From a virus: a stretch of DNA of 22,652 nt. Numbering within the stretch: the first letter of the stretch is position 1; each line of letters begins with the position of its first letter. The notes under the pieces were generated by a model. That model was not told where the DNA came from and did not search any database. It saw only the letters and a list, made by a program, of their open reading frames with translations. A program made the translations under genes and the position numbers. The stretch spans positions 1-22,652 of IMG/VR virus record IMGVR_UViG_3300019752_000022. One strand, given 5' to 3'. Positions 11,647-21,502 of this stretch are shown here, in pieces.

Positions 11647-12285
11647 TTACTTGATCAATTCGACTTTTGATTTTACCAGTTCGGCGAATGCCAGAACCCG
11701 CTCTGATAGCGTTTTGATGTAATCATCATCACGATGCACTCGGACGACGAAAAGACGCGCTTTGCTGTCTTGCGGTATGCGCGGGTCAAAGCTCACGAAG
11801 TCGCACCAGTCGCGCTCTGCAAGCCAGAGATTGCCTTGCACTTGCGGCATGTGCTCCTTCGGCATTTCGCCATGGAGGACGGTCTTTAGATGCACTGCCG
11901 GGTTGTATGGGCACTTGATTTCAATAGCCCCGTCGTCGCCAACAAAACCATCGGACGAAGCGCCAATCAGGCCATTTTCATGAATCACAATGCCAGTCTC
12001 GACAACATCAACCCCACGGGTCAGCTCATACTCAAGCCGTGCCAGAGGCTCGTTCTCGTGACCCCAGTCCAGTGATGCCGCGCTTGCGCTTCGATGTTCT
12101 CCGGTCAGCGTCTCGGCCACCAACTCGCAAAGGTATGACATGGCAACTTCCGACAGCTTTCCCGCCTCCTGGTCTTTCTTGGCTCGCGGCTGCGTCAGAA
12201 CATCTCTGAACCGGCTGGCAGTAACGAGACCCAGACGGGCCTCGTGCCATTCTTGCGAGCCTTGGGCGACGTCAAGAATCTGCAT
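11647..12285 (-). CDS. YqaJ-like / lambda exonuclease-type recombination nuclease
   Basis: A 212-aa nuclease of the YqaJ viral recombinase type, a 5'-3' dsDNA exonuclease that makes 3' overhangs for an annealing partner. Motifs are QGSQEWHEARLG (residues 8-19), WGHENEPLAR (74-83), GASSDGFV with the metal-binding Asp (108-115), and IEIKC with Glu and Lys (121-125), followed by HMPQVQGNLWLA, as in the family. The start taken is the ATG at 12285, with AAGGG eight bases upstream; a GTG at 12294 would add three residues. It overlaps the end of the ERF gene by 14 bases, so the two are co-translated. Confidence 0.9.
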   Translation of the reverse strand: MQILDVAQGSQEWHEARLGLVTASRFRDVLTQPRAKKDQEAGKLSEVAMSYLCELVAETLTGEHRSASAASLDWGHENEPLARLEYELTRGVDVVETGIVIHENGLIGASSDGFVGDDGAIEIKCPYNPAVHLKTVLHGEMPKEHMPQVQGNLWLAERDWCDFVSFDPRIPQDSKARLFVVRVHRDDDYIKTLSERVLAFAELVKSKVELIK

Positions 12286-13033
12286 CGCCAGCACCCTTGG
12301 TCTTCTTGAGCATTGAAATCAGGTCTGCCGCCGCCTTTTTGCCAATCTGGCTAAACTCAAACTCAGAGCCGGGAGGCCACCCTAGTGACAGACACAATTG
12401 CTTTTTGACCTTGGCCTCATCAACGCCCTTTTCATCAATTAGCCGCATGATCTCAAGAGCCTGAGAGCTATCCGTCGGCTCGTTAGCCTGCTGCCCTGCC
12501 ATACGCCCATCATGGTCAGGGTCGGCGGTCACGATGCCGAACGCACCACATAGAGCGTAACGGCGCAGGTATGTCACTGCTGACCCAATGGCTTGGATGG
12601 TGCTTTTCTTGCCGCCGTCGTCTGCCGGTGCTTCCACCGTGGTTCTTTCGGCATGGCCGCTTGCATGAGTGGCAATGCAGGTCACAGAAATAATCCCATC
12701 ACCCTGTTTTTGCTCAAACCGGTACATCAAGCCTAACTCTGACATGAGCTGTTTGGTCTGGGCGATAATGTCGCCAATGGGCGCGTAGGTGTAATTGTGC
12801 CCCTGCTTCATGGCCTTAATAACGGGGCATTGCATCTGGAACTGGCCCATGGCGTTAATGAACGCCTTCTCGGCCTCTCTGGCATTCCAGCGCTCCTCCA
12901 GAGCCATCATTCGTTCCAGCTTTTCAATGTCGGCATCTGGAGACATCACAACTTGATGAATCATCTGCATCGGCGACGCCGGTACTTGCGCCGCCTGCTC
13001 TGCTTGTTTCGTTAAATTATTGCCTGTCATCAT
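12272..13033 (-). CDS. erf: ERF-family single-strand annealing protein
   Basis: A 253-aa recombinase of the ERF family, which anneals complementary single strands during phage recombination and genome circularisation. The core motifs are YAPIGDII (about residues 83-90) and GSAVTYLRRYALCGAFGI (about 150-167), together with the upstream FINAMGQFQ segment. The C-terminus is a charged helix ending KKTKGAGDADS. Two adjacent ATG codons (13033 and 13030) follow an AAGGGG; the second gives a more usual spacing of seven bases. It works with the downstream YqaJ nuclease in the manner of lambda Red Exo/Beta. Confidence 0.92.
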   Translation of the reverse strand: MMTGNNLTKQAEQAAQVPASPMQMIHQVVMSPDADIEKLERMMALEERWNAREAEKAFINAMGQFQMQCPVIKAMKQGHNYTYAPIGDIIAQTKQLMSELGLMYRFEQKQGDGIISVTCIATHASGHAERTTVEAPADDGGKKSTIQAIGSAVTYLRRYALCGAFGIVTADPDHDGRMAGQQANEPTDSSQALEIMRLIDEKGVDEAKVKKQLCLSLGWPPGSEFEFSQIGKKAAADLISMLKKTKGAGDADS

Positions 13034-13041
13034 CCCACCCC

Positions 13042-13347
13042 TTAAATAATGTCGCTGTCTTCGTTTGCATCAACCGCCGCGCGCGCGGCCTGCCCTACAT
13101 AACCCTCAAGCATCGCCTGTATTTCGGCGTCCTTTACGATGTACTTCTTCAGTAGTCTGGCCATTGCAAAAACCTCTTGCTCTTCGACGTTCTGAAAGAA
13201 GGCATCCACCGCCTTTTCCAGAGTCACGCCATCCACAGCATGGCCAGCCAGCACCAGAGCCGTGATGCGGTCGGCCTGGTCTGCGCGGTATTCTTCGACC
13301 TGCTCAGCCTGTTCGCGGTCGAACAATATTCCTTCTTCGTTTTTCAT
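13042..13347 (-). CDS. Hypothetical acidic protein, first gene of the recombination operon
   Basis: A 101-aa protein of unknown function, rich in Glu, Asp and Ala and predicted mostly helical (EQAEQVEEYRADQADRITAL and EEQEVFAMARLLKKYIV). No motif was recognised. It is the promoter-proximal gene of the leftward operon, eight bases before the ERF gene, and its ATG lies about 29 bases from the predicted start of the leftward transcript. First-gene position in a Red-like operon is where phages often put nuclease inhibitors or recombination modulators, but nothing in the sequence shows such an activity here. Confidence 0.72.
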   Translation of the reverse strand: MKNEEGILFDREQAEQVEEYRADQADRITALVLAGHAVDGVTLEKAVDAFFQNVEEQEVFAMARLLKKYIVKDAEIQAMLEGYVGQAARAAVDANEDSDII

Positions 13348-13369
13348 CTTTCGCCTGTCCTTTTTCCTG

Positions 13370-13398
13370 TTGATTTGTCTGCATAGTACATATATAGT
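13370..13398 (+). promoter_or_regulatory. Rightward early promoter (pR-like)
   Basis: TTGATT at 13370-13375 and TATAGT at 13393-13398 are separated by 17 bases. Transcription would start near 13405, about 25 bases before the Cro-like ATG at 13430. The -35 lies in the left arm of the inverted repeat. Confidence 0.7.
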
Positions 13399-13411
13399 TT
13401 TAACAAATCAA
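13383..13411 (-). promoter_or_regulatory. Leftward promoter for the recombination operon (pL-like)
   Basis: On the minus strand, TTGATT (13411-13406) and TACTAT (13388-13383) are separated by 17 bases. Transcription would start near 13376, about 29 bases before the ATG at 13347. Its -35 is in the right arm of the inverted repeat and overlaps the region just downstream of the rightward start, so polymerase cannot occupy both promoters at once. Confidence 0.62.
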
Positions 13412-13429
13412 CAGAAAGCGAGACGAAAA

Positions 13430-13645
13430 ATGGAAATAAACACAGGTCTGGCATACCGCCGAATGGCCGAAAAACACGGTCAAACACAGAGGCAGGTTGC
13501 TGGCATTTGCGCAGTGTCAGCGCAAACCGCAAACCGCTGGTTTATGCGCAAAAATCAAAGCATTGCTCTCGCAAGTGACAACTGCAAAAAGCTGGGATGG
13601 GATTTTCTGGAGTTTATGGAATATGCAACGGGGAGGAAATCATGA
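13430..13645 (+). CDS. Cro-like helix-turn-helix regulator
   Basis: A 71-aa DNA-binding protein and first gene of the rightward operon. The HTH lies in residues about 17-38 (GQTQRQVAGICAVSAQTANR plus WF), preceded by LAYRRMAEKH. Size and position fit a Cro-type regulator that would bind the flanking inverted repeat and repress both promoters. The start is the ATG at 13430; the frame is open further upstream but that stretch crosses the promoter region. The upstream region is weak in Shine-Dalgarno (GAAAGCGAGACG). The stop overlaps the next small gene (ATGA). Confidence 0.75.
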   Translation: MEINTGLAYRRMAEKHGQTQRQVAGICAVSAQTANRWFMRKNQSIALASDNCKKLGWDFLEFMEYATGRKS

Positions 13646-16382: not shown

Positions 16383-16423
16383 CCACAACCGGCCAAGCGC
16401 CGGTTTTTTCTGTCTGCAGTATT
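16383..16423 (+). repeat. Direct repeat copy A flanking the inserted gene
   Basis: The segment starts CCACAACCGGCCAAG, continues through the terminator hairpin and T-run, and ends with TGCAGTATT at 16415-16423. The same order recurs at 16869-16910. The first 27 bases differ by one base (loop C versus T), and the five bases before TGCAGTATT differ. It contains the transcription terminator described separately. Confidence 0.8.
16387..16409 (+). terminator. Rho-independent terminator of the early operon
   Basis: AACCGGC at 16387-16393 pairs with GCCGGTT at 16399-16405 around the loop CAAGC, followed by a T-run to 16409. It lies eight bases after the DUF551 stop. Confidence 0.9.
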
Positions 16424-16868: not shown

Positions 16869-16910
16869 CCACAACCGGCCAAGTGCCGGTTTTTTTGTGC
16901 TTGCAGTATT
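16869..16910 (+). repeat. Direct repeat copy B flanking the inserted gene
   Basis: Second copy of the terminator-containing repeat, 486 bases after the first, with one extra T in the T-run and one substitution in the loop. It ends in the same TGCAGTATT (16902-16910). Recombination between the two copies would remove the intervening gene precisely and leave one terminator. Confidence 0.8.
16873..16896 (+). terminator. Rho-independent terminator after the inserted gene
   Basis: AACCGGC at 16873-16879 pairs with GCCGGTT at 16885-16891 around CAAGT, followed by T residues to 16896. It lies about 17 bases after the stop of the moron-like gene. Confidence 0.9.
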
Positions 16911-16961: not shown

Positions 16962-17171
16962 ATGAACTTTCCACGAGCAATAAAAGTGCTTTGCGCGAAA
17001 GCCGGGATAACCCAGTCAGAGCTAGCCGGAAAAATGGGCGTGCAGCCCCCGAAATTCAGCCAAATGAAATCGCCATCCCTATCAACAATAAAATCTGTTG
17101 CCCTATCGCTCGGAGTAAGGCCTTCGGAGTTGGTGGCTGAAGCGGAGAAGTACCAGGAGAAATCAAAATGA
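16962..17171 (+). CDS. XRE-family helix-turn-helix regulator
   Basis: A 69-aa protein with a lambda-repressor-type HTH: IKVLCAKAGITQSELAGKMG (about residues 7-26), then PPKFSQM as the recognition helix region and LSTIKSVALSLGVRPSELV. An AAGGAG eight bases upstream fixes the start. It lacks any dimerisation or self-cleaving domain, so it is a small Cro/antitoxin-type regulator rather than a CI protein. It is the first gene after the second terminator and overlaps the Rha gene (ATGA), so the two are co-expressed. Confidence 0.8.
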   Translation: MNFPRAIKVLCAKAGITQSELAGKMGVQPPKFSQMKSPSLSTIKSVALSLGVRPSELVAEAEKYQEKSK

Positions 17172-17845
17172 ACATCACGCAAAAACAAACCATGAGCAGT
17201 CGGGAGATTGCTGAGCTTGTAGAATCCCGTCACGACAGCGTAAAACGCTCAATGGAGCGCTTGGCAAAAGGTGACGTAATATCGGTTACACCAATGGTGG
17301 AACCGGTCGCAACAGGCGGAAAGCCTACGGAAGTGCTCAATGTAAACAAGCGCGACAGTTACATAGTCGTTGCCCAGTTATCGCCACAATTCACCGCTCG
17401 CCTGGTTGATCGCTGGCAAGAGCTGGAAGCCCAGCAAGCACCAGCCATTCCCAAGACGCTTTCCGAAGCCCTGCGCCTTGCCGCCGATCAAGCCGAATTT
17501 ATCGAACAGCAGGCTGAGCTGCTGGAAAAACAACAGCCCTCTGTTGAGTTCGTGGAGCGCTATGTGGAGTCATCCGGGACGTTCGGATTCCGTGAAATCT
17601 GCAAGCAACTTGGCGCGAAGGAAAACAAGTTCCGCGCCTTCCTTCAGTCTCAGAAAATCATGTACCGCCTTGGCTCCGACTGGACGCCATACGCACAGCA
17701 CATGGACAAGGGGTTTTTTGAGGTCAAGACCGGCACTGCCAATGGTCACGCCTACAAGTCCCCGCGATTCACCGCAAAGGGCGCTGAGTGGATTTCCGGC
17801 GAATGGGACAAGTACCTGAGGAAAAACCCAGAGGTGGTGAAATGA
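17168..17845 (+). CDS. Phage antirepressor: Rha domain plus KilAC (ANT) domain
   Basis: A 225-aa protein with the Rha regulatory domain at residues about 8-87 (MSSREIAELVESRHDSVKRS, then RDSYIVVAQLSPQFTARLVD and RWQELE). A helical linker follows (LSEALRLAADQAEFIEQQAE, residues 98-117), then a C-terminal KilAC/antirepressor domain (about 125-222: VEFVERYVES, FGFREICKQLGAKENKFRAF, and PRFTAKGAEW near the end). Proteins of this build bind or titrate repressors and can tip a prophage toward lytic growth. It overlaps both neighbours by four bases. The linker and C-terminal plan match the second antirepressor at 19394. Confidence 0.88.
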   Translation: MNITQKQTMSSREIAELVESRHDSVKRSMERLAKGDVISVTPMVEPVATGGKPTEVLNVNKRDSYIVVAQLSPQFTARLVDRWQELEAQQAPAIPKTLSEALRLAADQAEFIEQQAELLEKQQPSVEFVERYVESSGTFGFREICKQLGAKENKFRAFLQSQKIMYRLGSDWTPYAQHMDKGFFEVKTGTANGHAYKSPRFTAKGAEWISGEWDKYLRKNPEVVK

Positions 17846-19308: not shown

Positions 19309-19972
19309 ATGCAAAACATCACTCAAAAACCGTCCGTAATGGACACCGTTCAATTCCTGTCGGAAGTGATCAATCCCGCCCGTTCTGCCGAGAATGAAAA
19401 AACCGGTTCGCTATATTGATTTCTTGGCTCGCGTTAAAGATGAGATTGATTTCAGTCATGACGAAATTTTCGTCATGGATTCGACGGGCGGACGAAGCCG
19501 AGAAGCAATAAATCTAAACCACCAGCAAATGATTCTGGTTGGCATGCGCGAGTCTAAGTCTGTCAGAAAGCGAATACTGAAGCAGCTTGAAGGCATGAAG
19601 TCGCAAACACCAGTCCTGCCACAAACCTTCGCCGAAGCCTTGCAACTGGCAGCCGACCAAGCCAAGCAACTGGAAGCGCAAGCCCCAAAGGTCGCGTTTG
19701 TAGAAAACCTGGTAGAGCGCAAAACCCTGATGACCGCCACTCAAGTGGGCCAGAAGCACAAAATCAGCGCCATCAAATTGAACCGGATGCTGGACGACAT
19801 CGGCGGCATCTATAGTAAGAGTGTCAAGCGCTCACGGACATTTTGTCAGAGCTGGATTGACGGCGGGCTTGGCGAAATGAAACAGACAGAACTTGGTCAC
19901 TCACAGGCATTGTTCACCCCAGCCGGTGAAGTTGAGATCGCCCGCCTTCTGACATCGGAGGGCTTGGTATGA
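19309..19972 (+). pseudogene. Second phage antirepressor, split by a frameshift at an A6 run
   Basis: Two overlapping frames together spell one antirepressor. Frame one runs 19309-19419 (36 aa: MQNITQKPSVMDTVQFLSEV plus INPARSAENEK) and starts behind GGAG. Frame two runs from ATG 19394 to 19972 (192 aa: MKKPVRYIDFLARVKDEIDF, then MILVGMRESKSVRKRILKQL). The halves meet at six A residues (19396-19401); removing one A would join ENEK to PVRYIDFLARV, the sequence expected of this family. The C-terminal region (FAEALQLAADQAKQLEAQAP, then FVENLVE) matches the linker of the antirepressor at 17168. It may be a broken gene, a sequencing error, or a translated overlap; the downstream frame alone keeps most of the protein. 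Confidence 0.7.
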
Positions 19973-20335: not shown

Positions 20336-21502
20336 ATGGCTATATTCAAAGCCGTTGTACATTCCGAGTACGCGCAAATCCCTAATTCAACCCTGCAAGA
20401 CAAGTCGCTCACTTTTGAGGCTCGCGGGCTTCTGGCTATGCTACTGTCTCTTCCTGAAGATTGGGAAATCCACAAGAGCTGGCTTCAGGGTCAATCCGTA
20501 AAGTGCGGTCGTGACAAGCTGACCAGAATGCTAAAAGAGCTGCAGGATTCTGGTTACGTCAGAAAGAAAATGAATCAGCGTGATGATGGGAAATTCTCCG
20601 ACATTGATTGGCTTGTATACCCAACCGCACAACTGAAAACCCGTTCAACGGAAAACCCGTCCGACGGAAAACCCGCAACTACAAAAGAAACAATTAAACA
20701 AAGAAACAAAAATACAAATATTGGCACACCTAACGGCATGCCCTGTAAAACCTGCGGTGGTGTTGGCAAGGGAATGGACGGGTTTGGCAATTACACAAAG
20801 TTACCGTGCCATGACTGCCAAGGCTCTGGAGTGATCGAAGAGCAGCCCTGCAAATTATGCGATGGCAATAAATATCTGGATGCGAAAAAACACGATTGGG
20901 ACTCAGGGACTGTTACGACGGAAAAAGTTAAATGCCCTGACTGCAACGGCACCGGAGTTGCTCCAGTAAAAACAGGATGCTGGATTTGTGAGCGCGAAGA
21001 AGGAACAGGCCCAGGGTGTGCAACGTGCAAGCCTGAGGTCACCGGCACTAATCAACCATCGGCACCGAATCCAGAACAGACGGCAATCGAGAACGCAAAG
21101 ACCAAGGGTTCCGCGCCGTATCCTGACGAATTTGAATGGGTCTGGAAAAACAAACCCCAGCGAATTGGTGCAAACCCGAAGAGGAAAGCCTACAACGCCT
21201 GCCGTGCAAGACTCAAAGAAGGCGCAACATGGCGGGAGCTGGCTGAGGGCATGAAGCGCTATTCCGAACACTGCAAAACTGAACAGAAGCTGAACAGCCA
21301 GTACGTGATGCAACTCGCAACCTTCTTCGGCCCTGACGAGCATTTCAAGGAGCAATGGCAGACGCAGCAGAAGGCGCAGGAAGGCGCGCAAGCCGAAAAC
21401 CCTACTACTGACCCAGAGTCATACACAAAAGCCCCAGAAATAACGCAGGAACAGCTAGAATCGACATCAAAACAATTATCTAACCTAAAGGGGCTGCTGT
21501 GA
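20336..21502 (+). CDS. Replication-associated winged-helix protein with DnaJ-like zinc repeats
   Basis: A 388-aa protein directly upstream of the DnaB gene, the slot of phage replication initiators or helicase loaders. Residues 1-95 form a winged-helix domain (FEARGLLAMLLSLPEDWEIH, then RDKLTRMLKELQDSGYVRKK). Residues 137-231 hold a cysteine cluster of the DnaJ type: CKTCGGVG, CHDCQGSG, CKLCDGNK, CPDCNGTG, then CWIC and CATC. The C-terminal part (FEWVWKNKPQRIGANPKRKA, YNACRARLKEGATWRELAEG) looks like a small helical domain often found in such proteins. GAGGT six bases upstream of the ATG fixes the start, which is about 20 bases beyond structured leader 2. The stop shares a base with the helicase start (TGATG). 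Confidence 0.78.
   Translation: MAIFKAVVHSEYAQIPNSTLQDKSLTFEARGLLAMLLSLPEDWEIHKSWLQGQSVKCGRDKLTRMLKELQDSGYVRKKMNQRDDGKFSDIDWLVYPTAQLKTRSTENPSDGKPATTKETIKQRNKNTNIGTPNGMPCKTCGGVGKGMDGFGNYTKLPCHDCQGSGVIEEQPCKLCDGNKYLDAKKHDWDSGTVTTEKVKCPDCNGTGVAPVKTGCWICEREEGTGPGCATCKPEVTGTNQPSAPNPEQTAIENAKTKGSAPYPDEFEWVWKNKPQRIGANPKRKAYNACRARLKEGATWRELAEGMKRYSEHCKTEQKLNSQYVMQLATFFGPDEHFKEQWQTQQKAQEGAQAENPTTDPESYTKAPEITQEQLESTSKQLSNLKGLL

Follow-up and report, generated by a model that had tools for sequence, protein, structure and literature searches.

How are two divergent early operons of a phage started and controlled from an intergenic region of 82 bp, and does the inverted repeat lying within it choose between the two directions or govern them together? 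The question arises in a 22.6-kb virus fragment (22,652 nucleotides, analyzed at full length and hereafter called the window), in which two 12-bp arms form a perfect inverted repeat and carry promoter elements pointing both ways. The recognition of bidirectional promoters as a general class is recent, and little work has addressed how they are controlled. The geometry found in the window lies just outside the published definition of that class and recurs at the same functional place in distant phages. The site is small enough for base-by-base dissection, which would reveal the means by which two early operons are coupled in a compact genome, and it offers a natural two-way promoter part.

Architecture and gene neighborhood

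The features of the locus are collected in Table 1. The arms are separated by 24 nt (36 bp center to center), and neither is a clear palindrome individually. Each -10 box lies 17 bp inward from its -35 box, beyond the dyad, with 9/12 consensus matches for the rightward promoter and 8/12 for the leftward one. The two -10 boxes are neighbors with 4 bp between them, 29 bp separate the predicted starts, and each -35 box falls within the first ten bases that would be transcribed from the opposite promoter. The whole promoter pair occupies fewer than 50 bases. Judging from the predicted starts, both transcripts should begin with the same bases, AAATCAACAG.

Most of these features had been proposed in a preliminary description of the locus. 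Its 12-base perfect arms, each with a TTGATT, are exact, its start positions are the same as those predicted here, and the hexamer positions agree with its overlapping, oppositely directed promoters serving a recombination operon and an early rightward operon. Both -35 boxes are contained in the arms, so that an arm-bound protein would cover both, as it had also suggested. Its claim of a good -10 box at 17 bases on either strand holds for the spacing on both strands and for the quality of the rightward box, but the leftward TACTAT is mediocre (4/6).

Table 1. Features of the divergent early region, in window coordinates
Feature	Position	Strand	Remark
Left arm, CTGTTGATTTGT	13367-13378	+	Contains the rightward -35 box and the predicted leftward transcript start
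Right arm, ACAAATCAACAG	13403-13414	-	Contains the leftward -35 box and the predicted rightward transcript start
Rightward promoter, TTGATT-17-TATAGT	13370-13398	+	-35, 13370-13375; -10, 13393-13398; predicted start, 13405
Leftward promoter, TTGATT-17-TACTAT	13383-13411	-	-35, 13411-13406; -10, 13388-13383; predicted start, 13376
101-aa protein, encoded first in the leftward operon	13042-13347	-	No known family
ERF single-strand annealing protein	12272-13033	-	PF04404, E 1.5e-24; phrog_155
YqaJ-type recombination exonuclease	11647-12294	-	PF09588, E 9.8e-23
71-aa helix-turn-helix (HTH) protein, encoded first in the rightward operon	13430-13645	+	phrog_7950 transcriptional repressor, E 2.4e-5
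Intrinsic terminator, probable end of the rightward early transcript	16387-16405	+	Presumed assignment

Rightward, the 71-aa HTH gene is followed by early genes, the terminator, and later by another small HTH gene, a pair of Ant-type antirepressors and the replication initiator. Leftward, no opposing regulator gene was recognized among the 101-aa protein, ERF and YqaJ, and neither an integrase nor a CI-type gene was found among the window proteins scanned.

Several other features of the rightward side may be recorded. The second small HTH gene, repressor-like, lies at 16962-17171 (69 aa), and the antirepressor homologues follow at 17168-17845 and 19394-19972. The terminators at 16387-16405 and 16873-16891 are nearly identical (AACCGGCCAAGYGCCGGTT with a T run), and both precede TGCAGTATT and a promoter-like stretch; the duplication looks like the boundary of a duplicated gene cassette. 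An internal stretch of the replication initiator (20336-21502) resembles the cysteine-rich zinc domain of DnaJ (PF00684, E 3.5e-4, under the curated cut-off).

Chance expectation and conservation

A 12-bp arm appeared in none of 3000 dinucleotide shuffles of the 82-bp region (largest arm, 10), and an equally good interlocked promoter pair appeared in 0.7% of 3000 such shuffles. Within the window it is also the sole inverted repeat that combines perfect arms of at least 12 bp with a loop of 3-40. When both strands of the window were scanned blindly with a simple sigma-70 matrix built from classical hexamer frequencies, the rightward promoter ranked first and the leftward promoter third among 45,242 positions, scoring 12.4 and 10.5 bits, respectively. 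Searches of genome contigs for a host matched only distant Bacteroides exonucleases.

Searches with single proteins yielded only one close relative, G001, for the 71-aa and 101-aa proteins, and none in viral contigs for ERF alone. The 48-bp site retains 45 of its 48 bases in G001, with both -35 and both -10 hexamers unchanged; one of the three changes disrupts the left arm at its outermost pair, and the others lie between the arms. The right arm and the rightward leader are identical over 27 bases, while the adjoining leftward gene is 52% identical, its leader is 47% identical, and 20 of the 72 third codon positions of the HTH gene (28%) differ. In addition, the Erf of the window is replaced by a RecT-type protein in G001. 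Since the site has been kept while its neighbors drifted and Erf was swapped, it is under a constraint of its own and moves as a module.

The ERF/RecT swap between close relatives can be located at L020:12605-13498 against 12272-13033 of the window, with the exonuclease (94% identical) and the promoter site kept. Further leftward in this relative with RecT, the genes that come next encode terminase and portal among others, where the window has a tail fibre region.

Recurrence beside recombination operons

We considered every plus/minus promoter pair scoring at least 8 bits each in 14 intergenic regions beside recombination operons, where ERF adjoins a divergent early operon. An interlocked pair with an outer -35 to -35 distance of 40-43 bp, a range picked after the first cases had been seen, is present in 10 of the 14 (7 of 11 when counted by lineage). 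The distance is 42 bp in the window, G001, PVA1 and ZP9, 43 bp in APEC, 41 bp in X14, and 40 bp in GJ44, 1.184, 1.211 and L033. Shuffles of the 14 regions gave 0.08 such regions on average with a maximum of 2 in 500, and the best 4-wide distance window anywhere in the shuffles reached at most 3 regions. No interlocked pair was found in PGA, BA3, 41E34 and D478, nor any good promoter pair in three divergent ERF loci added later (L012, L034, L035), giving 10 of 17 overall. Back-to-back promoters with abutting -35 boxes occur in X14, PGA and 1.211, in addition or instead. From its sequence, promoter ranking, conservation and recurrence, we conclude that the site is a real, recurring bidirectional early promoter, with activity predicted in both directions.

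The cores of the interlocked sites are only 20-60% identical to each other, implying either far divergence with the geometry kept or more than one origin. Compactness may drive the interlocking, since regions of 73-82 bp would otherwise barely fit two promoters and two leaders.

The 40-43 bp clustering is a property of ERF-type early regions. A first geometry scan, most of whose matches belong to a few families, had peaked at 41-43 bp, but we discarded this peak as a preferred distance because the search pattern fixed the distance between each -35 and the opposing -10, and the peak therefore reflects only that both spacers are 16-18 bp. A second, distance-free scan of viral DNA at large gave no single preferred distance among the matches listed, and 42 bp was accordingly dismissed as a universal optimum.

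The first gene encodes a Cro/C1-type HTH protein at the X14 site and a NikA-like RHH protein at the GJ44 site (PF21983, E 1.1e-6), which are the best-supported small DNA-binding candidates; the Arc/RHH matches at ZP9 and PVA1 are weak. It is conceivable, although we would rather doubt it, that phages in which early genes adjoin a divergent recombination operon have repeatedly arrived at, or retained, a single standard part. This part would be an interlocked pair with 40-43 bp between its -35 boxes, under the control of whichever small DNA-binding protein the adjoining first gene encodes; it would give recombination and replication genes a fixed ratio and a common shut-off and could be swapped as a cassette.

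Role of the arms

The -35 hexamer accounts for six of the 12 arm pairs. Because the promoters need only these six, the six extra pairs suggest either a bound protein, with the arms as its operator, or a shared leader. In most other interlocked pairs the arm symmetry is near chance past the -35 box, whereas it is perfect over 12 in the window; the exception is L085, a near-perfect 43-bp palindrome from a separate viral family.

The L085 palindrome (L085:4443-4485) itself forms a symmetric pair of interlocked promoters, and the 334-aa protein encoded downstream of it resembles, by eye, a T4-type single-strand binding protein. Another locus, L228:6245-6306, is a perfect 62-bp palindrome with two opposed consensus promoters (TTGACA-17-TATAAT) and symmetric flanks.

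The obvious candidate for binding the arms is the 71-aa protein, as the product of the first rightward gene with a predicted HTH fold. Its structure model has five helices (pLDDT 76), its Foldseek matches are weak (all E >0.2) with XRE/Cro-CI regulators among the top, and its Pfam HTH matches are sub-threshold only. Putative membership in the Cro/CI (XRE-like) group would accord with the phrog_7950 match and the five-helix model, the fold matches being weak. The protein would most likely repress both promoters. The arms, which are no clear palindromes and whose 36-bp spacing is too far for one small dimer, count against a simple operator picture.

On balance, we lean toward a compact bidirectional early promoter whose arms are operator half-sites for the 71-aa protein, so that the site would serve as a shared, self-limiting gate rather than a choice between two programs. 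Host RNA polymerase with the main sigma factor would bind in either orientation, one polymerase at a time, and both operons would fire alternately from the single site early in infection. A single polymerase fits the layout, since the -10 boxes lie side by side and each -35 is embedded in the other's early transcribed bases; steric exclusion between two polymerases is expected from these positions. Competition is possible but not assured, because both promoters are moderate matches to the consensus. For comparison, five E. coli bidirectional promoters, bioA/bioB included, have basal activities too low for polymerase competition, and an improved -35 or strong activation in one direction suppresses the other (PMC12825309). 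The 71-aa protein, expressed from the rightward promoter, would then accumulate and cover the -35 box and the start site at each arm, bringing both operons down together. Recombination and early replication-side genes would probably start and shut off from this single spot; we infer where transcription starts, that polymerases exclude each other, that the 71-aa protein binds and that shut-off is joint.

A possible but distinctly less probable explanation is that there is no operator, and the arms are alike through a common -35 together with a common start and leader, in which AAATCAACAG precedes the ribosome site; the pair would then simply be constitutive and compact. In interlocked geometry, each -35 is by itself early transcribed sequence of the other promoter, and related phages, not all of which share the regulator, also carry an ATCAACA-type leader at one start or at both. 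Bidirectional promoters are also reported by Warman et al. to be common, with the tested ones weak (PMC12825309). Nevertheless, the lack of symmetry past the -35 in most other interlocked pairs, the improbability of six extra matching pairs by chance, and the small HTH gene directly downstream argue against this explanation.

We consider it unlikely that the arms are the site for a different protein, either a host factor or the 69-aa phage HTH protein beside the Ant-type antirepressor gene. The 69-aa protein does fit the Cro/C1-type HTH (PF13443, E 3.4e-6) better than the 71-aa protein, an anti-repressor Ant homologue comes after its gene, and a second case of identical 12-bp arms, in an unrelated phage, has no recognized HTH gene as a neighbor. 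However, the window contains no other copy of an arm with at most one mismatch, upstream of 16962 included, and the arms do not match the IHF consensus by eye.

In that unrelated phage (L003:4342-4395, L004:5404-5457, L005:799-852), the same arms, CTGTTGATTTGT ... ACAAATCAACAG, are separated by 30 bp and lie immediately upstream of a phage DnaJ gene, and a strong TTGACT-17-TATAAT promoter runs through them; either chance or a common binding protein would account for the identity. Together with a 3'-end hairpin and a coding match, this phage makes up the arm-pattern matches in viral contigs besides G001, all of which were taken to be non-homologous.

The preliminary description had interpreted the site as a switch between the two operons. 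We found nothing that opposes the two directions, and a true two-way switch, in which the firing of a promoter, or binding at one arm, favors one operon over the other, is quite improbable. Both promoters cannot be occupied together, their strengths are unequal by the matrix scores given above, and strong one-way activation does repress the other direction in E. coli (PMC12825309); but identical arms give a regulator no sequence basis for choice, both operons appear early, and no leftward regulator gene was recognized in opposition. We drop the term switch, and retain the rest of the description, because identical arms make joint repression the simplest outcome, as in the biotin operator.

Finally, a chance palindrome or RNA hairpin in place of a promoter pair is scarcely credible: the arms could pair within a read-through transcript and Rfam gives weak hairpin-like matches, but these are due to the repeat only, there is no T-run, the predicted transcripts start inside one arm without including the other, and conservation, promoter ranks and recurrence all speak for promoters. 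The Rfam matches were set aside as hairpin noise rather than an RNA element.

Comparison with known systems

Warman, Grainger and colleagues describe bidirectional promoters in E. coli and other prokaryotes that resemble the window site in their pseudo-symmetric DNA and in what is predicted for the window, namely two polymerase orientations, divergent mRNAs and steric exclusion (PMC12825309, PMC10268837). In that class the starts are 7-25 bp apart, most often 18, and the -10 is shared (PMC12825309, PMC10268837), whereas in the window the starts, predicted rather than mapped, lie outside this range, the -10 boxes are separate, and each -35 is within the other's first transcribed bases.

The Pc/Pr region of pLS20 with RcoLS20, a repressed/derepressed conjugation switch, likewise has overlapping divergent promoters and an HTH autoregulator encoded on one side (PMC4207663). 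It differs in that its promoters are unequal, its regulator is a tetramer, a second operator stands at a distance of 75 bp, and the DNA is looped (PMC4207663).

The lambda CI/Cro immunity region shares the divergent early promoters and the small HTH gene placed first on the right. Unlike in lambda, no maintenance repressor of the CI type was recognized opposite the small HTH gene of the window; leftward, the 101-aa protein of no known family leads directly into the recombination genes.

The E. coli biotin operator, read for comparison, likewise places perfect arms of 12 bp between two divergent operons, bioA and bioB, although its arms are 16 bp apart rather than 24, its promoters are weaker, and its regulator, BirA, is encoded elsewhere and is not an early phage protein. 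In the biotin operator, one repressor on two half-sites shuts both directions. The window has the same type of layout, with inverted arms that overlap both divergent promoters and hold both -35 boxes together with both predicted starts.
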